A stretch of 43,827 bases of DNA. Origin: Microcystis wesenbergii FACHB-1317. GTDB taxonomy: Bacteria; Cyanobacteriota; Cyanobacteriia; Cyanobacteriales; Microcystaceae. The stretch spans positions 1 to 43,827 of the forward strand of contig NZ_JACJQV010000107.1 of NCBI RefSeq assembly GCF_014696875.1, in the 5' to 3' direction. The notes under the pieces were generated by a model that made no database searches, had not been told where the DNA came from, and saw only the letters and a program-made list of their open reading frames with translations. This document shows, piece after piece, positions 21,554 to 30,347 of this stretch (positions are counted from its first letter, which is position 1; each line of letters starts with the position of its first letter). Position numbers and translations under genes: made by a program.

Positions 21554-21583
21554 TTAGGGTGGGCAATGCCCACCCTAATTTTT
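21554..21583 (+). terminator. Intrinsic terminator of rpoC1
   Basis: TTAGGGTGGGC (21554-21564) pairs perfectly with GCCCACCCTAA (21568-21578) across AAT, followed by TTTTT at 21579-21583. It lies between convergent rpoC1 and ridA. The T-run overlaps the ridA stop codon on the other strand. There is no matching T-run for the - strand, so it is mainly one-directional. Confidence 0.9.
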
Positions 21584-21971
21584 AGGCTAAAGCGGCAATA
21601 CATTCTATTTCCACTAGCACATCTTTGGGAAGACGGGCCACCTCCACACAGGCCCGGGCCGGGGCAGTTTCTGGGGGGAAATAACGGGCATAAACTTGAT
21701 TCATCGCCCCGAAATTGGCTAAATCCGAGAGAAAGACGGTAGTTTTCACCACATTTGACCAATTAGCCCCAGCAGCGGTTAAAATGCCCTCTAGATTGGC
21801 CATAACTTGTTCGGTTTGGGTGCTAATTTCCCCGGAGACGATTTCACCCGTGACGGGATCTAGGGGAATTTGTCCCGCAACAAAGAGAAAAGGACCAGGA
21901 GCGGCGATCGCTTGATTATAGGGACCCACAGGGGCCGGAGCTTTATCAGTACGGATGACCTGATTATTCAT
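21582..21971 (-). CDS. ridA: RidA family (YjgF/YER057c/UK114) enamine/imine deaminase
   Basis: About 129 residues in the standard RidA frame: [20 protein letters not shown], then [36 protein letters not shown], and a C-terminal [22 protein letters not shown] containing the conserved arginine (PARACVEV) that binds the substrate carboxylate. RidA hydrolyses reactive 2-aminoacrylate formed by PLP enzymes. A longer frame starts at 21998, but MNNQVIRTD at 21971 is the usual start. It is convergent with rpoC1. One copy of a 75-bp direct repeat lies just upstream, at 22001-22075. Confidence 0.93.
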
Positions 21972-22000
21972 GGGCAGGATAGTTAAAAAAGATGACATTG

Positions 22001-22075
22001 AATCAATTGAATATTTTCCCAGTTTTTCGATCGCTTGTAGTTAATTTTCGCCGGTTAGGGGATTTAATTTTGACT
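22001..22075. repeat. 75-bp direct repeat, left copy
   Basis: Matches 24182-24256 at 70 of 75 positions by eye, in the same orientation (AATCAATTGAATATTTTCCC ... TTTAATTTTGACT). The two copies bracket the DUF262-HEPN gene pair. Far too long for a normal target duplication, so it more likely marks a segmental duplication or a recombination-mediated insertion upstream of ridA. Confidence 0.85.
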
Positions 22076-22123
22076 GATTGTCTTTGTCGAAGGTGCGCTA
22101 AAAGCGATTGTACGAGAAATAAG

Positions 22124-22627
22124 TCAACACTTATGACGCTGCAATTCTGCATCTAACTCTGTTAACAAAGCATATATTCTATCAAAATCATGTTGAGTTT
22201 TAGAAGGAGCGTCATAGGTTCTCAAAGTACCTTTAGTATGAGTATGAGCCGCTCGATTGCGACTTTTCTTTAGATTACCGAGATCACCTTTTAAAGCACT
22301 AATTTTACCAGTTTTTTCTAACTTTTTTTCGATTTTTTCTAATGTTGCTAAACCAATAACCATAATCAACATTTTTCTAAAAGCTTCATATTGAAAGTTA
22401 GAGTTAGGCTTAATAATCTCGTCTTTGATGAATTTTTGGTTAGCTGGGGACTTTAAGCATCGTTTAGCACATCTTAAAACTATATCATCCATAGTTTCCT
22501 CGATCCAGCCACATAATTCTATAAGAGCTAGTTTAGAATAAAAAATCTTTTGATCATCACTTGTAGAGTCATTATAGAGTTTATCAAGCCTGTTTAACGT
22601 CTTGAGTAAATAACTTTTAGTAATCAT
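22124..22627 (-). CDS. HEPN-domain protein paired with DUF262
   Basis: 167 residues, mostly helical. Near the C-terminus is KSRNRAAHTHTKGT, with an R-x4-H-type motif (R-N-R-A-A-H) that forms the catalytic centre of HEPN ribonucleases. The N-terminal region (ALIELCGWIEETMDDIVLRCAKR) resembles the HEPN family named after Microcystis MAE_28990 in composition; I make this match from memory of the family, not from a search. The gene overlaps the end of the upstream DUF262 gene by 11 bases, so the two are translationally coupled. HEPN proteins of this type act in toxin-antitoxin or abortive-infection systems by cutting RNA. Which partner restrains which is not shown. Confidence 0.75.
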   Translation of the reverse strand: MITKSYLLKTLNRLDKLYNDSTSDDQKIFYSKLALIELCGWIEETMDDIVLRCAKRCLKSPANQKFIKDEIIKPNSNFQYEAFRKMLIMVIGLATLEKIEKKLEKTGKISALKGDLGNLKKSRNRAAHTHTKGTLRTYDAPSKTQHDFDRIYALLTELDAELQRHKC

Positions 22628-23765
22628 TACCAGTAGATGAAAAAATTTTGATAGATGTATTAATTCTCTCTAAAGCCTTATCTTTTTGATAAATACCACT
22701 AGCTAAATTTTTAGTCAAAAATGGTTCAGATTTTATTAATCTAGAATACTTGTCTTGTAATTCATCATTGGAGAGATTGACTAAAGTATCTAAATTCTTG
22801 GCAACTCCTAACAGAATTCCCTCAGCAATAACTTTACTGGTTTTGAGAGGTTCCTCTTTTAAGATTCTATCATAAATCAAGTCAACGGTTTGCTTAAATA
22901 ATTCATCTTTATCTTGAATAAAATCTTCATGAGCAAATCTATGTTTATACATATAATCATTTAAAAATCTGGTCAATTTCCCCTTGTAGTTCTGGTATTC
23001 ATCATAAAAAGCAAAGAAACGAAGCACTAATTCTTCATCTTCAAATCGAGATGCTTTTTTCTGCTTTCGATCCATATCTTCAAATCGAGATGCTTTTTTC
23101 TGCTTTCGATCCATCAGCAAAAGCCAGTTTTCATATTGAGCGCATTCTTTTAAAAAAGTATTAAACTCGCCATTATAGATACAATTTCTGATCTCCTGAT
23201 TATTGAGTTTTACTCCACCGGTATTTAAGCGATGGAAAATGGTAAAAATATAATTATTATGAGCTTTTTTGCTGGAGTCATAGCGAATCATGGTGATGGG
23301 AATAGTCATATTTTCTACGCGTTCATATAATTCTTCATGCTGAGTTTTTATTTCCTCAACTGTTTTTCCAGAAATAGACGAATCTACATCGGGTAATTTT
23401 GATAGCTTCCAATCTTCAGTAGTTAAAAATTTGACGATGGTACTAATTCGTTGTAATCCATCGATGATATAGCGTTTATCTGTCTTATAGTCAAGACTAA
23501 TACACATACTAGGAATCGGTAACTGTTTCATTAAACTATCAATAAAACGAGTTTGTTGTGGATCAGTCCACACCACATCTCTTTGAAAATCTGGATCGAT
23601 AACCAATTGTTTTTTTTGATACATTCTAACTAGATCAGAGCAGGAACGCTGCTCATTGTAAGCAATAATATCTACAGGAGGAAAATCCACATCATCTTCT
23701 TCCTCTAGATACTTTTCTTCTTCGGCTGCTAGTAATTTCTCTTCTTGACTGAGATAATTAACCAT
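22617..23765 (-). CDS. DUF262 (GmrS-like) domain protein
   Basis: About 382 residues. The N-terminal DUF262 fold shows LVIDPDFQRDVVW, PIPSMCISLD and the hallmark DGLQRISTI (usual form DGQQR), then IFTIFHRLNTGGVKLNNQEIRNCIY. DUF262 is a ParB/sulfiredoxin-like domain found in GmrSD-type modification-dependent restriction enzymes and other phage-defence proteins, where it uses nucleotides. The C-terminal HNH half of GmrSD is absent; instead a separate HEPN gene follows. Start chosen at ATG 23765 (MVNYLSQEEK), preceded by AGGACGG, over a longer frame from 23810. A perfect 39-base tandem duplication adds 13 residues mid-protein. Confidence 0.85.
   Translation of the reverse strand: MVNYLSQEEKLLAAEEEKYLEEEDDVDFPPVDIIAYNEQRSCSDLVRMYQKKQLVIDPDFQRDVVWTDPQQTRFIDSLMKQLPIPSMCISLDYKTDKRYIIDGLQRISTIVKFLTTEDWKLSKLPDVDSSISGKTVEEIKTQHEELYERVENMTIPITMIRYDSSKKAHNNYIFTIFHRLNTGGVKLNNQEIRNCIYNGEFNTFLKECAQYENWLLLMDRKQKKASRFEDMDRKQKKASRFEDEELVLRFFAFYDEYQNYKGKLTRFLNDYMYKHRFAHEDFIQDKDELFKQTVDLIYDRILKEEPLKTSKVIAEGILLGVAKNLDTLVNLSNDELQDKYSRLIKSEPFLTKNLASGIYQKDKALERINTSIKIFSSTGNDY
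23037..23114. repeat. Perfect 39-bp tandem duplication within the DUF262 gene
   Basis: Units 23037-23075 and 23076-23114 are identical over all 39 bases. Each encodes MDRKQKKASRFED on the - strand, so the protein carries this 13-residue block twice and stays in frame. Complete identity implies a very recent or actively varying duplication. Confidence 0.95.
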
Positions 23766-23850
23766 AATTTTTATCCGTCCTAATATTGCCAATTCAAAAA
23801 TGAAACGCACGACTCCTTAAGAGTTGACAGAAAAAGGCTCATCAGGTACT

Positions 23851-23934: not shown

Positions 23935-24225
23935 TTGGTCAAGAGGGAAATTTATCTCAACGGCAAATGGCAGCTGGGATGTCATCAAAGCACGACCAAA
24001 GCGAGAATTAAGAAGGAATCAAGGTTCCCTCAGATGCTATCTACTGAAAATTGGTATAAAACCGCAAGTGAAATCAATCGAGTGACCGAAAAACTTTTCC
24101 AAGAGATTCCCGTCGAAAAAAGAAAAACCTTTACTTGTGACAAGGTCAAAGAATTTTGTGGACATCAAGAGTTGAGTCAGAAACCAATTGAATATTCTCC
24201 CAGTTTTTTGATCGCTTGTAGTTAA
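23935..24225 (+). pseudogene. Possible remnant of a small helix-turn-helix gene
   Basis: A TTG-started frame of 96 codons is open here, but it does not look like a normal gene. At 23932-24010 a different frame reads LYQLGQEGNLSQRQMAAGM, which resembles a helix-turn-helix (an LSQRQMA helix), then stops. Further right, the 23935 frame gives TASEINRVTEKLFQEIPVEK. This mix suggests a frame-shifted or decayed regulator-like gene. The 3' end runs into the right copy of the 75-bp direct repeat, which supplies its last codons and stop. I do not recognise the family. Confidence 0.35.
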
Positions 24226-24256
24226 TTTTCGCTGGTTAGGGGGTTTAATTTTGACT
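24182..24256. repeat. 75-bp direct repeat, right copy
   Basis: Second copy of the repeat at 22001-22075, in the same orientation with five differences, mostly transitions. It contains the end of the small decayed ORF and lies just beyond the 3' end of the large ATPase gene. Confidence 0.85.
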
Positions 24257-24288
24257 AAGCGATCGTTTGAGAAAAGTCGATCGATGAC

Positions 24289-26952
24289 TCACTTTGTACC
24301 TGTACGAATCATCTTAAATCCATACACATAAATATCTGCGAATCCATATCTTTTTTCTTTTTCGCGCCATTGAGCAAGACCAATTTCGCTTAAAAGCTCG
24401 GCAAATCTATCGAAATCAGGTATTATTGACCGTGCGGTACGTTCCCACACTTGACGGAGTTCTTCCCTAGAAGGTAAAGCAGAAATTCCTTCTAAAGCTC
24501 GGAAAAAATTCTCTAGGTCAGGATATTCTTGTCTAATAGCCTCACAGCGTTCTTCAGAAGCTTTTTCTAAACCAATTTCTAGAGATTTTGCTCGCAATAA
24601 GCGATCAGTTGGTGACTGAATTGATGACTGTCCTTTGTAGGTTAATTCTTGTGCTTTTGCTCCTTGTAATAGAGCGCTTAAACTGCGAGGAAAAGTAGTA
24701 CCACTAGAATCTGTTAAACGCTCATAAACCCATCGATAAACGTATTTAGCTTTATTGCCACTTCGTCGGCGACTGCCCCAAAGTAATTCTAAGGCACGAT
24801 TTAGAGCTTCTTCCGTTGCTTGATCGATACTTTCCACGGGAGCAAAACGAGCGACTAACTCTTTAAATTTTGGCGAGAGAAAAGCTTGACGGAGAGCTAA
24901 TCTCAAGAAATCTATTCTCGTCCATTGTAGAAGTAAATCTCGTCCATTGAAGTGACTTTTATTATCAAAGTTAAGACGTTTCCAGATATCTTCTCTCAGA
25001 AATATTTTAAAACGAATTGCTGTTAGTGTCCGAGCATCACAAGCTTGAACAAACTGAAATAAACCGGTGAGAGCTTGTTGACGAATATCTTCTCTCTCTG
25101 GGAAATCTTCATCTAAATCATCATAAAGAAACCAGAGAGTCTGCTGCTCTTTTAATTGTTTCTCATTAACTAGATCTAAAGCATCTTTAATCAGGAGAGT
25201 CAAATTTCGATCCGTTGCTAATTGAACTAAAGCTTCAGTATGTTCCGATTGCCAATTTTCCGGGGGTAATTCTAAAATTAGTTTAATCGCCTGAAATTTT
25301 TCCCACTTTTTACCTTTAGGAAAGATACTATTTTGATATTTTCTGTACACATTTATCAGCAAATAAGCTCGCCAAACTGCTTCCCAGGTACCTTTTTTTT
25401 CTAGCAATTCTTGATTTATATACTGGAATTCATCCCGGGATGGACGACTATTATTATAGCTCCCATGACCAGATAATAAAGTCACATGATCTAGACGACT
25501 ATAGGCCAATTTTCGTGCCTCAGACTCCTTCTGCAGTAGTAACAAATAAAGTGCTGTCTTTCCTGTTCCCTTACGACCTCTGATCAGACAAGTTGCTTGA
25601 TCAAGAAATTTATCAAAGTTAGCAGTTTTCTGAAATAAAAGACTAATATCTGAACGGATATCTCCCGCATTTAATGGCATAAAATTAAGACTTTCAATAA
25701 CTTGCCAACGTTGTTTGGAACTGGCCAGAATGTTTTGCAAGCGAATTTCATTGGTATCTTCATCGATTAAGTTAGCAATGCGAGTATAATAATCCAGTAA
25801 TCCAGTGACAGGATAACGGTCTGCTAGAGCGATCGAGGGAATATAAGGTATGATTAAATAGTCTTCTGAATCTATATCTAAATCATGATCGGTAGTTTCA
25901 TCTATATCTATATTTTTGTCAATATCCTTTTGTAAAATTTGCCAAGCATGAGTAACTTTAGTTATTCCTGTATCACTTAAATCGGGAACAGGTGAAAAAA
26001 CAAAATTAAGCGAAAGTCGGCCAAAAGAAGTCAAAGATTGCAAAAGAAGCTCGATTCCTTTTTGATTTTGTTCGTTAGGAAATAAAAAAATAATTGCTTC
26101 GTTGGCTGCCTGTAGTAAAGATAAAGCTCCCCATTCATTGATTCCAGTGCGCGAATCTACTAAGATAAGATCAGGTTTTAACTGATTTTGAATCTCTCGA
26201 CTAAAAGTTGACCAGAGTGTTTCCCCATTATCGAGAATTGTTGTTGCTCGCAGATCATCAACTTTAGTAATGTAATCAAGACTCAAATAACCCGCAGGAA
26301 CAATAAATAGTCTTCCCGTTGCATCGGGAATATTAACTTCTCCAAATATTTCAGTGATATTAATCTTTGCTTTTACACCTTCTGGTAAATAGGATTTTTC
26401 ATAAAAATAGTCCACAATTCCGTATTTCGGTGAGGGATTTAAGGGGAAAGCTGTGCTTAACCCCGGTGCTTCTAAATCCAAGTCAACAGCTACTACTTTA
26501 CGACCTCGCATCGCTAAAATCCAAGCAACATGAATTAAAGCAGTTGTCCTACCTACTCCCCCTTTAAAAGAATAAAAAGTTACGGTTCTAGGAAGACAAA
26601 GTTCGGGAGAAGACGGTGATTGATTTTGTGGATTAGTTGACCACAAAGCTAAATCTTGCCAAGTGTGAATTGATTTTTCGTCCAGAAGTTGTGGAGCTTT
26701 TAGATCGAGAGAGGCTGCCTCCTGAATAGTATATAAAGATATAAAACCTAAAGATTTATGCTGTTGTCCTATGTCATTTTTAACTGCTTCTATTCGCTGA
26801 GTTGTTGATAAATTTTCAAACTTATCACTGACGATAGTTATATTCAAAAGTCCAGCAGTAGATACATTGAGATCAACCCATTCTTGAGCTTCTTTTTGAA
26901 CATATATATCTGTTAATTTTTGTTTCAGTGATCTTAACCAAGTTTCTGACAT
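24289..26952 (-). CDS. Bimodular ATPase: KGGVGR-type ParA/MinD-like domain plus second P-loop module
   Basis: 887 residues. Residues 1-115 form a small N-terminal domain (ITIVSDKFENLSTTQRIEAV) that looks BolA-like. A deviant ParA/MinD-type ATPase starts near residue 125, with YSFKGGVGRTTALIHVAW (130-137 KGGVGRTT) and VDLDLEAPGLS. A second P-loop module starts near residue 455 (LIRGRKGTGKTALYLLLL), with Walker B LWFLYDDLDEDF near 612 and a helical C-terminus, similar to the Sll1717-type P-loop ATPases. KGGVGR proteins are recurrent in bacterial conflict systems. A HEPN-like gene lies ten bases upstream on the same strand, suggesting a two-gene sensor/effector unit. The overall function is unknown; cytoplasmic, with no membrane segment. 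Confidence 0.8.
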   Translation of the reverse strand: MSETWLRSLKQKLTDIYVQKEAQEWVDLNVSTAGLLNITIVSDKFENLSTTQRIEAVKNDIGQQHKSLGFISLYTIQEAASLDLKAPQLLDEKSIHTWQDLALWSTNPQNQSPSSPELCLPRTVTFYSFKGGVGRTTALIHVAWILAMRGRKVVAVDLDLEAPGLSTAFPLNPSPKYGIVDYFYEKSYLPEGVKAKINITEIFGEVNIPDATGRLFIVPAGYLSLDYITKVDDLRATTILDNGETLWSTFSREIQNQLKPDLILVDSRTGINEWGALSLLQAANEAIIFLFPNEQNQKGIELLLQSLTSFGRLSLNFVFSPVPDLSDTGITKVTHAWQILQKDIDKNIDIDETTDHDLDIDSEDYLIIPYIPSIALADRYPVTGLLDYYTRIANLIDEDTNEIRLQNILASSKQRWQVIESLNFMPLNAGDIRSDISLLFQKTANFDKFLDQATCLIRGRKGTGKTALYLLLLQKESEARKLAYSRLDHVTLLSGHGSYNNSRPSRDEFQYINQELLEKKGTWEAVWRAYLLINVYRKYQNSIFPKGKKWEKFQAIKLILELPPENWQSEHTEALVQLATDRNLTLLIKDALDLVNEKQLKEQQTLWFLYDDLDEDFPEREDIRQQALTGLFQFVQACDARTLTAIRFKIFLREDIWKRLNFDNKSHFNGRDLLLQWTRIDFLRLALRQAFLSPKFKELVARFAPVESIDQATEEALNRALELLWGSRRRSGNKAKYVYRWVYERLTDSSGTTFPRSLSALLQGAKAQELTYKGQSSIQSPTDRLLRAKSLEIGLEKASEERCEAIRQEYPDLENFFRALEGISALPSREELRQVWERTARSIIPDFDRFAELLSEIGLAQWREKEKRYGFADIYVYGFKMIRTGTK

Positions 26953-26962
26953 AACTATCTCC

Positions 26963-27385
26963 TTAAAGTTGAGTAGCTTGTTTCTGAAGCCATCTTTTCA
27001 GACCTGTATAAGCTGATAACCACTCTTTGTATTTATCGTCATTCGGTTCACTGCTGGAATAACGCATAGTTATAAAATTTTGACTAGGATTTTCTACTAT
27101 ATTAATCCATTTTATCACCTCTGGAAAATTTTGAACTCTCGAATAGAGACGATTATGACGTTTTAAAGCATCTGTAAAACTGTGACCAGGATTAGTTATG
27201 GTATGTCCGGGGTTATTGGAATCAGTTTTCCATTCTTGACTGGATACCGAAGCTAAGATCATAGATTTCAGCAAACATTCGATCGTAATACCTCCAAAGT
27301 GCATAGCAGCTATTTTCCTATTAGATTTACAAAGTATTTCTGTATCTTGATGACGTTGTAAAAAAGCTGATTGGTAATCTTCCAT
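26963..27385 (-). CDS. HEPN-like small protein, partner of the KGGVGR ATPase
   Basis: 140 residues, predicted helical. The N-terminal half (AAMHFGGITIECLLKSMILAS) has the hydrophobic helix seen in HEPN-fold proteins, and FITMRYSSSEPNDDKYKEWL resembles the late-helix MRYS motif of that group. A clear R-x4-6-H catalytic motif is not visible, so RNase activity is uncertain. The gene ends ten bases before the large ATPase gene, so they very likely form one operon. Context near the DUF262-HEPN pair supports a defence role by association. Confidence 0.6.
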   Translation of the reverse strand: MEDYQSAFLQRHQDTEILCKSNRKIAAMHFGGITIECLLKSMILASVSSQEWKTDSNNPGHTITNPGHSFTDALKRHNRLYSRVQNFPEVIKWINIVENPSQNFITMRYSSSEPNDDKYKEWLSAYTGLKRWLQKQATQL

Positions 27386-27488: not shown

Positions 27489-30347
27489 TTAGAACTCTCC
27501 TTTTAAAGCGGCATTACAGCGCTCGCAAATAGTGGGATCATCGGCAAATTTTCCCACTTGAGTGGAATAATTCCAACAGCGATCGCATTTTTCGCCGTCT
27601 GCTTTGACAATTCCCACCGAAACAAAGTCCGATTCTCCTTTATATTCTGCGGTTTGAATCGCGCTAATATCACTGACTAATTCCACTTGAGAAGAGAGAA
27701 ATAGATAACGCAATTCATCGACTTTATTCCCCGTTAAACTATCACAATTGTTGAATAATTCTAACTCCTGTTGTAAGGTTTCATCGGGAACATAAAGTAA
27801 AACTTTTGCCTCTAAAGAAGCACCGATCGCTTTATCATTTCTGGCAGTTTCCATCACCTTATTAACTTCGGTGCGTAGCTGCCGGAATTTGGCCCATTTA
27901 TCGGCCAATTTGCGATTATTCCAAGCAGGATCGATGTTTAGCCATCCTGACTCAAATACCGATAAATAAGGGGTTTTGTAGGGGAGAAATTGCCAGATAT
28001 CTTCCGCTAGATGAGACAGGACAGGAGCGATCGCTTTAGCAAGATTTTCTAAAGCAATAGCATAGACTGTTTGACAACTGCGACGACGGAAAGAATTAGG
28101 ATCAGAAATGTATAAACGATCCTTAGCGATGTCGATATAAAAGTTAGATAAATCGACAACACAAAAATTCTGTACCGTCTGGAAAAAGCGGAAAAATTGG
28201 AAACTTTCAAAAGCTGCCGTAACTTCCGTAAACACTTCCGAGATACGATGTAACATATAGCGATCAATCTCCGGTAGATCATCATAAGCTACCGCATCTT
28301 TAAGGGGATCAAAATCATTTAAACTCCCCAGTAAAAACCTGGCAGTGTTACGGATTTTATTACGGATATCTACCAACTGTTTAAGAATATTTTGACCGAT
28401 ATTCACATCATTGGTATAGTCCACCGAGGACACCCATAACCGAATCACATCTACCCCATAAGCGGGTTCTTTTTTCTGGTCTTTACCACCATTAATGATC
28501 ACATTGGGATCGATGACATTACCCAGAGATTTACTCATTTTTCGTCCCTGTTCATCCAAAACAAAACCGTGAGTTAACACCGTTTTATAGGGAGCAATAC
28601 CATTAGCAGCCACACTGGTTAATAAACTCGATTGAAACCATCCCCGATGCTGATCCGATCCTTCTAGATACATATCCGCAGGATAACTTAATTCTGGTCG
28701 AGCATTAGCCACCGCATTCCAACTAGAACCAGAATCAAACCACACATCCATAGTATCCATTCCCTTGCGATAACTGCGACCATTATCGTGATAACTGGGA
28801 GGTAACAACTCCTCTACCGATAACTCCCACCAAGCATTAGAACCCTTGACTGCGAAGATAGCTTGAACGTGATTAATCGTCTCCTCAGTTAACAGAGGTT
28901 CATTCGTTTCTTCGTCATAAAAAACAGGAATAGGAACCCCCCAACTGCGCTGACGAGAGATACACCAATCGCTTCTTTCACTAACCATAGAAGTGATGCG
29001 ATTCTTACCTGTTGCGGGAATCCAACGCACCGAATCAATTGCTTCTAAAGCTAATTCCCGGAATCCTTCCACGGAAGCAAACCATTGTTCCGTTGCGCGA
29101 AAAATTGTCGGTTTTTTGGTTCTCCAATCGTAGGGATATTTATGCTGATATGCTTCTTCTTTGAGTAAGGCCCCCTTTTCTGTCAGTGCTAAAATTATCG
29201 CTTCATTAGCATCTTTCAGGACATTTAAACCCGCAAATTGTCCCGCTTCTGCGGTGAAATTTCCCTTATCATCCACGGGAGAAAGTATCGGTAAACCGTA
29301 ACGTTGGCCGACGATATAATCCTCCTGACCATGGCCAGGGGCCGTGTGAACTAATCCGGTGCCGGAATCAGTGGTGACATAATCCCCACCGATGAGAATC
29401 GCACTTTCTCTGTCAAACAAAGGATGACGATATTTAGTATGTTCTAATTCCAGACCTTTAACCGTTGCTTTAATCGTCAAAGTTGTGTTAAAAGTGTCGG
29501 CCAATTTTTCGACTAAATCCGTCGCTACGATTAGATAATTAGACTCGCTAGTTTCCACCACTGAATAGTTTAATTCTGGGTTCAATGCGACGGCCAAATT
29601 CCCGGGTAAAGTCCAGGGAGTAGTCGTCCAGATAGCCACGGATAAATTAGGCAAAAATGGCGTTAAAACCGGGGTTGAAACTGACGTAATCGGAAAAGCA
29701 ACATAGACACTCCGGGAAGTGTGACCTTCGGGATATTCTAATTCGGCCTCAGCTAAAGCGGTTTGAGAACTAGGACTCCAGTGAACCGGTTTTAGTCCCC
29801 GATAAATATAACCTTTTAGGGCCATTTTTCCGAATACGGCAATTTGAGCGGCCTCGTATTCAGGTTGTAGGGTTAAATAGGGATTTTCCCAGTCTCCCCA
29901 GACTCCATACCTTTTGAAACCTTCACACTGTTCTTTTTGCGTTTGAAGGGCAAAATCGTGGGCTTTCTGACGTAATTTTAAAGGGGTTAGACCCTCTTTT
30001 TCCGAGCTTTTGAGACTTTGTAAAACCTTTAGTTCGATCGGCAACCCGTGACAATCCCAACCCGGCACATAGCGCACTTTGTAACCTTGCAGCAGTTTAT
30101 ATTTATTGATAATGTCTTTGAGAATTTTATTTAAAGCATGACCGATATGCAGGGACCCGTTAGCGTAGGGTGGACCATCGTGGAGAATAAATAATTCTTT
30201 GGGGTTATTTTGCGCTAATTTCTCGTATATTTGCTCATCTTGCCAGAATTTCTGCATTTCTGGCTCACGTTTGCTGGCATTTGCTCGCATATCAAAGTCA
30301 GTTTGAGGCAAATTAACGGTATCTTTGTAACTTTTAGCGTTGGACAT
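27489..30347 (-). CDS. ileS: Isoleucyl-tRNA synthetase
   Basis: 952 residues, normal for bacterial class Ia IleRS. The HIGH motif lies in PPYANGSLHIGHALNK near residue 65. The CP1 editing domain follows (WTTTPWTLPGNLAVAL, and TDSGTGLVHTAPGHGQEDY). KMSKS lies in GRKMSKSLGNVI near residue 606. A C-terminal zinc site has CDRCWNYS and CERCNAAL. The enzyme charges tRNA-Ile and edits misactivated valine. The start MSNAKSYKDTVNLPQTDF is the conserved N-terminus. It is transcribed alone on the - strand with its own terminator. Confidence 0.98.
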   Translation of the reverse strand: MSNAKSYKDTVNLPQTDFDMRANASKREPEMQKFWQDEQIYEKLAQNNPKELFILHDGPPYANGSLHIGHALNKILKDIINKYKLLQGYKVRYVPGWDCHGLPIELKVLQSLKSSEKEGLTPLKLRQKAHDFALQTQKEQCEGFKRYGVWGDWENPYLTLQPEYEAAQIAVFGKMALKGYIYRGLKPVHWSPSSQTALAEAELEYPEGHTSRSVYVAFPITSVSTPVLTPFLPNLSVAIWTTTPWTLPGNLAVALNPELNYSVVETSESNYLIVATDLVEKLADTFNTTLTIKATVKGLELEHTKYRHPLFDRESAILIGGDYVTTDSGTGLVHTAPGHGQEDYIVGQRYGLPILSPVDDKGNFTAEAGQFAGLNVLKDANEAIILALTEKGALLKEEAYQHKYPYDWRTKKPTIFRATEQWFASVEGFRELALEAIDSVRWIPATGKNRITSMVSERSDWCISRQRSWGVPIPVFYDEETNEPLLTEETINHVQAIFAVKGSNAWWELSVEELLPPSYHDNGRSYRKGMDTMDVWFDSGSSWNAVANARPELSYPADMYLEGSDQHRGWFQSSLLTSVAANGIAPYKTVLTHGFVLDEQGRKMSKSLGNVIDPNVIINGGKDQKKEPAYGVDVIRLWVSSVDYTNDVNIGQNILKQLVDIRNKIRNTARFLLGSLNDFDPLKDAVAYDDLPEIDRYMLHRISEVFTEVTAAFESFQFFRFFQTVQNFCVVDLSNFYIDIAKDRLYISDPNSFRRRSCQTVYAIALENLAKAIAPVLSHLAEDIWQFLPYKTPYLSVFESGWLNIDPAWNNRKLADKWAKFRQLRTEVNKVMETARNDKAIGASLEAKVLLYVPDETLQQELELFNNCDSLTGNKVDELRYLFLSSQVELVSDISAIQTAEYKGESDFVSVGIVKADGEKCDRCWNYSTQVGKFADDPTICERCNAALKGEF

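Follow-up and report, generated by a model that had tools for sequence, protein, structure and literature searches.

The window analysed here is a 43,827 bp stretch of the genome of Microcystis wesenbergii FACHB-1317, a bloom-forming cyanobacterium (contig NZ_JACJQV010000107.1), and our subject is a two-gene cassette that lies in it between ileS and ridA (Table 1). The first gene encodes an HEPN-family protein, and the second, 10 bp downstream on the same strand, encodes an 887-residue protein in which a BolA-like N-terminal domain, a KGGVGR ATPase domain and a Sll1717-family P-loop module are joined. The original prediction, made from the DNA letters alone, had placed an HEPN-like protein directly upstream of such a large protein, and both open reading frames (ORFs) are indeed present. 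It also regarded the combination as undescribed and unnamed, and this did not stand: the combination is already catalogued in PADLOC-DB as PDC-M28, where PDC stands for phage defence candidate (PMC11514479, in its available portion), and modules of HEPN plus a ParA-type ATPase were predicted in 2013 (Anantharaman et al. 2013, PMC3710099; this survey is cited throughout from its available portion).

Architecture of the cassette and its relation to PDC-M28

The large protein matches the PADLOC-DB models PDC-M28B (E-value 3e-41, residues 118–364) and PDC-M28C (3.9e-31, residues 448–885), and the HEPN protein matches PDC-M28A (8.7e-9). The HEPN protein thus corresponds to A, the KGGVGR half of the large protein to B and the Sll1717 half to C. 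PDC-M28 is catalogued as three genes, whereas here B and C form one protein with a BolA-like N-terminus, as they do in 16 relatives in the same alignment. The window cassette is therefore a fused variant of PDC-M28 rather than a plain member. The closest named relatives, five loci with 93–98% identity, are from Microcystis.

Table 1. Features at and around the PDC-M28 cassette, in window positions
Feature	Position	Strand	Remark
HEPN-family protein (PDC-M28A), 140 aa	26963..27385	-	E36-x3-K40, H68, R108-Y109 signature
Fused BolA-like / KGGVGR ATPase / Sll1717-family P-loop protein (PDC-M28B + PDC-M28C), 887 aa	24289..26952	-	
BolA-like N-terminal domain, ~residues 5-85	26698..26940	-	Profile comparison
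KGGVGR deviant ParA/MinD-type ATPase domain, residues 121-307	26032..26592	-	NCBIfam NF047398, E 1.3e-50
KGGVGR motif, residues 130-135	26548-26565	-	
Sll1717-family P-loop module, residues 433-869	24346..25656	-	NCBIfam NF047389, E 5.5e-43
Segment missing from five other Microcystis genomes, ~1.69 kb	24057..25750	no strand	8-bp overlap at junction
IS30-family transposase remnant, between PDC-M28 and PD-T4-2	23935..24225	+	30 bits, below model cut-off of 80
75-bp direct repeat, copy adjoining fused gene	24182..24256	+	93% to other copy
75-bp direct repeat, copy adjoining ridA	22001..22075	+	Pair brackets PD-T4-2
PD-T4-2 A (GmrSD_N / DUF262-type)	22617..23810	-	PADLOC, E 3.3e-156
PD-T4-2 B (HEPN_RiboL-PSP)	22124..22627	-	PADLOC, E 4.5e-97
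ileS, conserved border of variable site	27489..30347	-	
ridA, conserved border of variable site	21582..21998	-	

The BolA-like character of the N-terminus, which the original prediction had proposed, is borne out by profiles. As a single sequence the window protein does not match Pfam BolA, and only four of the 17 aligned fused proteins do (best E-value 0.051). A profile of the 17 N-termini, searched against PDB, matched 20 chains at E-values of 1 or less, 11 of them named BolA; the best were 4pui (named SufE-like, and presumably containing a BolA domain; 1.8e-5) and 1v9j (BolA-like; 3.6e-5), and two chains that are not BolA (CpxP) were also matched, at 0.0016 and 0.0069. Compared by hhalign with 23 cyanobacterial BolA proteins, the same profile gave 93.5% (E-value 2.3e-7, 50 columns), against at most 1.0% for 20 column-shuffled controls; its three sub-clades taken singly gave 83.6%, 10.0% (from just two sequences) and 90.7%. 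One of BolA's conserved histidines binds iron-sulphur. With cyanobacterial BolA as reference, the histidine directly after R53 (the RH/QH stretch of BolA) is missing from all 17 fused proteins, and that of the IHAL stretch is present in one (L021). No BolA signal was detected in three split-form B proteins, one of them from the window's own genome (0.8%), or in three prophage-type relatives (0.2%), which makes the N-terminus the part of the fused protein that varies. Among the matches listed in a literature search, judged by title and start of abstract, none tied a BolA-type domain to HEPN or to an anti-phage module.

A KGGVGR ATPase and a second P-loop module had likewise been predicted, and each is matched by its own NCBIfam family (Table 1). 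The KGGVGR domain is ParA/MinD-like. The deviant Walker A consensus of the ParA/MinD (SIMIBI) ATPases is KGGxGK, and all 17 aligned fused proteins depart from it in having arginine (R135) where the final lysine is expected. The lysine of KGGVGR, which had been proposed for mutation as the Walker A lysine, is thus not at the usual lysine position; it is residue 130, which is lysine in nine of the 17 and arginine in eight. In the Sll1717 module G459, K461, K465, D611 and D614 are invariant in all 17, and the Pfam neighbours of this module, mostly weak matches, are AAA_16, ORC-CDC6-like and nSTAND families. KGGVGR domains are elsewhere fused to TIR and to NACHT, and these fusions fit a general signalling role for KGGVGR. 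Literature searches by name returned nothing for sll1717, and KGGVGR only in a review of mushroom lectins.

The window HEPN protein alone has no convincing Pfam match and none to the HEPN family PF05168. Its family is better recognised: 12 of 19 members match PF05168 at E-values of 1 or less (best 2.3e-9), and profiles built with one clade omitted recover all members of the omitted clade with E-values no higher than 4.3e-8. A profile of the family (A2) found no HEPN chain in PDB, and an orphan relative matches AbiV_defense under the cut-off (7.5e-5, 23.1 versus 27 bits). All 47 distinct HEPN proteins compared have E36, K40 and R108, and 43 of them have H68, so that an Ex3[KR] motif (47/47), an N-terminal histidine (43/47) and a conserved arginine (47/47) are all present. 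The Ex3[KR] motif is noted in many HEPN families, and in the AF0298-like HEPN-T and AbiV families, where the arginine is kept and the classical histidine lost, a further N-terminal histidine could form an alternative active site (PMC3710099). By these residues the window HEPN carries such an alternative active-site signature and not RX4-6H. The AF0298-like and AbiV proteins resemble it also in Ex3K but differ in that the available text describes no ATPase partner for them, whereas the window HEPN has one.

A further point of comparison is the HEPN family named MAE_18760, whose prefix we take to be a Microcystis locus tag. Its members are found, like the window HEPN, next to genes for ParA/Soj-type ATPases, and such dyads were predicted to be toxin-antitoxin modules with the ATPase as antitoxin (PMC3710099). 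Compared by description only, the two differ in that the MAE_18760 family is listed as retaining Rx4-6H and the window HEPN lacks it, and in that the available part of the survey mentions neither a Sll1717 nor a BolA module, both of which the window system has.

Linkage to HEPN and carriage on mobile DNA

Since the PDC-M28B model is unspecific (see below), linkage was counted from the A and C models. In 292 cyanobacterial genomes these have matches in 29 and 32 genomes, respectively, and the sample comprised the 31 PDC-M28C loci above 70 bits. PDC-M28A lies within 4 kb in 27 of the 31 by the PADLOC model, including one locus that has lost B and part of C and kept its HEPN (G170:4964336). Three further loci have HEPN by our own hidden Markov model, one of them (G170:4436981) retaining only a 77-residue piece. 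The remaining locus is truncated where its contig ends, and A and the start of B lie on another contig of the same genome. An HEPN gene or piece is therefore present upstream in 30 of 31 strong C loci, and the prediction is therefore not refuted on the ground that homologues lack an HEPN partner. Twelve lower-scoring C matches were left out of this count: a second piece (G007), a fragment (G239:C673), two matches in G256 (from a broken copy whose HEPN is in L236), those of G037 and G081, where HEPN is present (L123, L124), and six distant proteins whose open frames span 923–955 residues (G178:C16, G200, G161, G310, G241, G250).

In the 20 loci opened, which hold 21 systems, HEPN lies directly upstream of the fused protein in 14 of 15 cases (one of the 14 being a 95-residue ORF with a stop, and the fifteenth a 55-residue remnant) and of the split form in five of six, the sixth being at a contig end. 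Distances between HEPN proteins follow those between the large proteins (r 0.96, n=15, none of 5000 permutations as high), with shared host descent not removed. We also note that in one genome (G049, L111:6716-15347) a fused PDC-M28 and a split one lie on the same contig, separated by about 2.2 kb. The window's genome has, in addition to the fused system, a split PDC-M28 (G000:C15:69287-72587) and, as a third and distant KGGVGR protein, a 932-residue open frame on G000:C152 (L004, L005).

Nine A matches are without C: two Sll1717-less Microcystis alleles, one at a contig end and six others. The five of these six that were opened (L045, L056, L060, L062, L066) each overlap a gene of 129–141 residues, and the two such genes scanned matched no NCBIfam family. 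These C-less HEPN genes and their overlapping small genes are possibly a separate two-gene toxin-antitoxin module.

The cassette is also found on mobile DNA. Three prophage-type contigs (L076, L077, L079) carry HEPN and a fused protein, and no more than about 3.5 kb away lie genes for integrase, tail or terminase. Among plasmids, seven of the 56 records with a match were opened, and five, from Nostoc, Enterobacter, Burkholderia, Agrobacterium and Paraburkholderia, have the cassette with an HEPN-like gene upstream (A-profile E-values of 7.7e-36 to 2.7e-4, the best unrelated one among 253 ORFs being 0.75). In three of these five the next annotated gene upstream is an integrase. In the remaining two records, a gene annotated as an AbiEi-type antitoxin lies upstream of the C-like gene (Aeromicrobium), and the match is a KGGVGR-TIR fusion (Sinorhizobium). 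No relative was confirmed when viral contigs were searched with an HEPN profile, though three viral contigs carry one beside a fused protein; the window's fused protein and the prophage-type protein have no match among 50,697 phage records, nor prophage-type DNA in E. coli genomes.

The ileS-ridA site in Microcystis

Both borders of the site are found in 12 of 12 Microcystis genomes and the gap between them is never empty; in all 12 it holds PDC-M28, PD-T4-2 or a type II restriction system (PD-T4-2 outside the window being recognised by DNA similarity to the window copy). In the window, fused PDC-M28 is accompanied by PD-T4-2, which is the second HEPN system that had been seen alongside and whose two proteins PADLOC recognises (Table 1). 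PD-T4-2 resembles PDC-M28 in having an HEPN protein and adjoins it here, but the partner of its HEPN is a DUF262/GmrSD_N protein and not KGGVGR and Sll1717 modules. Two genomes have fused PDC-M28 alone (G006, G007), two have PD-T4-2 alone (G003, G010), and five (G001, G004, G008, G009, G365) have HEPN, a KGGVGR protein that ends at residue 403, and PD-T4-2, the B frame of which is only 82 residues in G004. In G002 the gap holds a type II restriction enzyme and methylase (scanned), and G005 has the same ORFs by sequence start. PDC-M28 is thus absent from the site in four of 12 genomes. The 75-bp repeat is present in other gaps in one copy, or in none in G003 and G008.

Five of the eight Microcystis carriers at the site therefore lack the Sll1717 module, and they share one deletion junction with an 8-bp overlap. 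The loss is derived, since a relative in another family, 71% identical, keeps the full fused protein. The reading frames of the short alleles remain open, and the ratio of non-synonymous to synonymous substitution rates (dN/dS) among four of them (L070, L071, L072, L016; G365 not included) is 0.26–0.61, values that recombination with intact alleles could affect.

A piece of the same module occurs on two viral contigs, where a 245-residue ORF (L073:5998-6735, L074:5998-6735) is 86–87% identical to window residues 431–676; from this identity, L073 and L074 are probably contigs of Microcystis phages. L073 also carries anti-repressor, RNA ligase and methyltransferase genes (scanned). Counter-defence was our first reading of the piece and was dropped: dN/dS between the two copies is 0.60, from nine synonymous and 20 non-synonymous changes, which is too weak for a claim of selection, and L073 has decayed homology beyond the stop. 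It is no less probable that the piece was captured and is decaying, and it may be either such debris or a blocker.

Proposed mechanism and alternatives

The original prediction saw in HEPN plus several NTPase modules a resemblance to signalling-controlled suicide systems. Its view of the cassette as a conflict module is supported by the linkage, the mobility and the Microcystis hotspot, leaving aside the claim that it was undescribed. From these observations, together with the architecture and conserved motifs, we infer the following mechanism and the defence phenotype itself, and give about an even chance to the reading that the cassette is a fused, BolA-headed PDC-M28 anti-phage module whose NTPases hold and release an HEPN toxin. 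The HEPN protein would be the effector, a toxin that cuts or binds RNA through the alternative active site E36/K40/H68/R108, and the large protein would act as its sensor and switch. An infection cue would be read by the variable N-terminal domain, which is BolA-like in the window and of another kind in split and prophage-type relatives; the KGGVGR domain would act as an ATP-dependent switch with arginine in place of the Walker lysine, and the Sll1717 module would be a STAND/Orc-like ATPase that gates HEPN release. Upon infection HEPN would be freed, and translation would stop or the cell would die.

Several observations weigh against this reading. No phenotype for PDC-M28 was found in any source searched, and the literature search by name was empty. 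The PADLOC PDC-M28B model has matches in 125 of 292 genomes and in four of 14 control genomes. The classical RX4-6H histidine is absent from 46 of 47 HEPN proteins (a histidine has the expected spacing after R108 in one). Five Microcystis genomes are without the Sll1717 module, so this gate may be dispensable for the system. Judged by eye, some PDC-M28 copies adjoin housekeeping genes, groEL among them. Finally, the question of defence-gene enrichment has an answer only for Microcystis, where the ileS-ridA gap has a defence or restriction system in 12 of 12 genomes, and outside Microcystis the comparison gives no verdict. There, 20 loci (one of them from the window's own genome) supplied 130 proteins, a maximum of seven nearest ORFs each, with fewer on short contigs and with ORFs above 1100 residues omitted. 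These were compared with 137 control ORFs from chosen rather than random positions on sufficiently long contigs, with PADLOC run at 1e-15; 107 models were matched at the loci and 30 in the controls, as numbers of models that may overlap and not of distinct proteins. Among the matches listed (25 of 107 and 25 of 30) no model matched more than two proteins, and most of the test models were methyltransferases.

The main rival, to which we give perhaps one chance in a handful, is that the cassette is a toxin-antitoxin addiction or mobile-element maintenance module in which the ATPase is simply the antitoxin of HEPN and there is no specific anti-phage trigger. This is what was proposed for the comparable HEPN and ParA/Soj dyad (PMC3710099); the carriage by plasmids and prophage-type contigs agrees with it, as does the two-gene arrangement of the five HEPN relatives that lack B and C and overlap another small gene. 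However, an antitoxin would hardly seem to need 887 residues, two P-loop modules and a variable N-terminus, and the chromosomal site of the Microcystis copy is one that other defence systems also use. Somewhat less probable again is that HEPN serves without catalysis as an adaptor, binding RNA or a nucleotide, and that killing is done by the NTPases, for example by ATP depletion or by engagement of DNA by the Sll1717 module. The missing classical histidine would be explained in this way, non-catalytic HEPN toxins are allowed for in the 2013 survey (PMC3710099), and all 17 proteins keep the Sll1717 module's Walker A and B residues unchanged. Nevertheless, the invariance of E36, K40 and R108 and near-invariance of H68 are more in keeping with an alternative active site than with a simple scaffold, and HEPN and the KGGVGR half stay open in five Microcystis genomes after the Sll1717 module was lost. 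A housekeeping positioning or partition factor, which the ParA/MinD-like KGGVGR domain might suggest, is already disfavoured and very improbable given the patchy distribution (the C module in 32 of 292 genomes, and none at the site in four of 12 Microcystis), the tie to an HEPN gene and the carriage on plasmids and prophage-type contigs.

A bolder version of the anti-phage reading, which we consider a long shot, would make the histidine-less BolA fold a swappable infection sensor of an HEPN suicide system, with the Sll1717 ATPase as the part contested by phages: Microcystis phages would carry the 245-residue piece of it as a decoy or dominant-negative blocker, and host lineages would have responded by deleting the module while HEPN and KGGVGR go on working. 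New here for this catalogued candidate are the BolA-like head without conserved histidines, the alternative HEPN signature, the HEPN linkage, the Microcystis hotspot, the shared deletion and the viral piece. They give it an anatomy, with HEPN residues that can be mutated and a sensor-like variable domain, and the natural deletion series within one genus shows which part can be lost.

Some minor features of the locus may be added. A scan for promoters and terminators found no excess over shuffled sequences (15 versus a mean of 17.8, and 2 versus 4.3). In the window's PD-T4-2 A gene a perfect 39-bp tandem duplication (23037–23114) adds 13 residues in frame; the unit is single in seven other aligned Microcystis copies. 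In G003 and G008 the spacer that holds the repeat has been lost, and ridA and the HEPN gene of PD-T4-2 form a single in-frame fusion (294 residues; L103:105-989, L107:49-933; corresponding to window 21582–22627). A Ribo L-PSP fusion is listed for the HEPN family of PD-T4-2 (PMC3710099), and it may have arisen through an accident of this sort at the ileS-ridA site.

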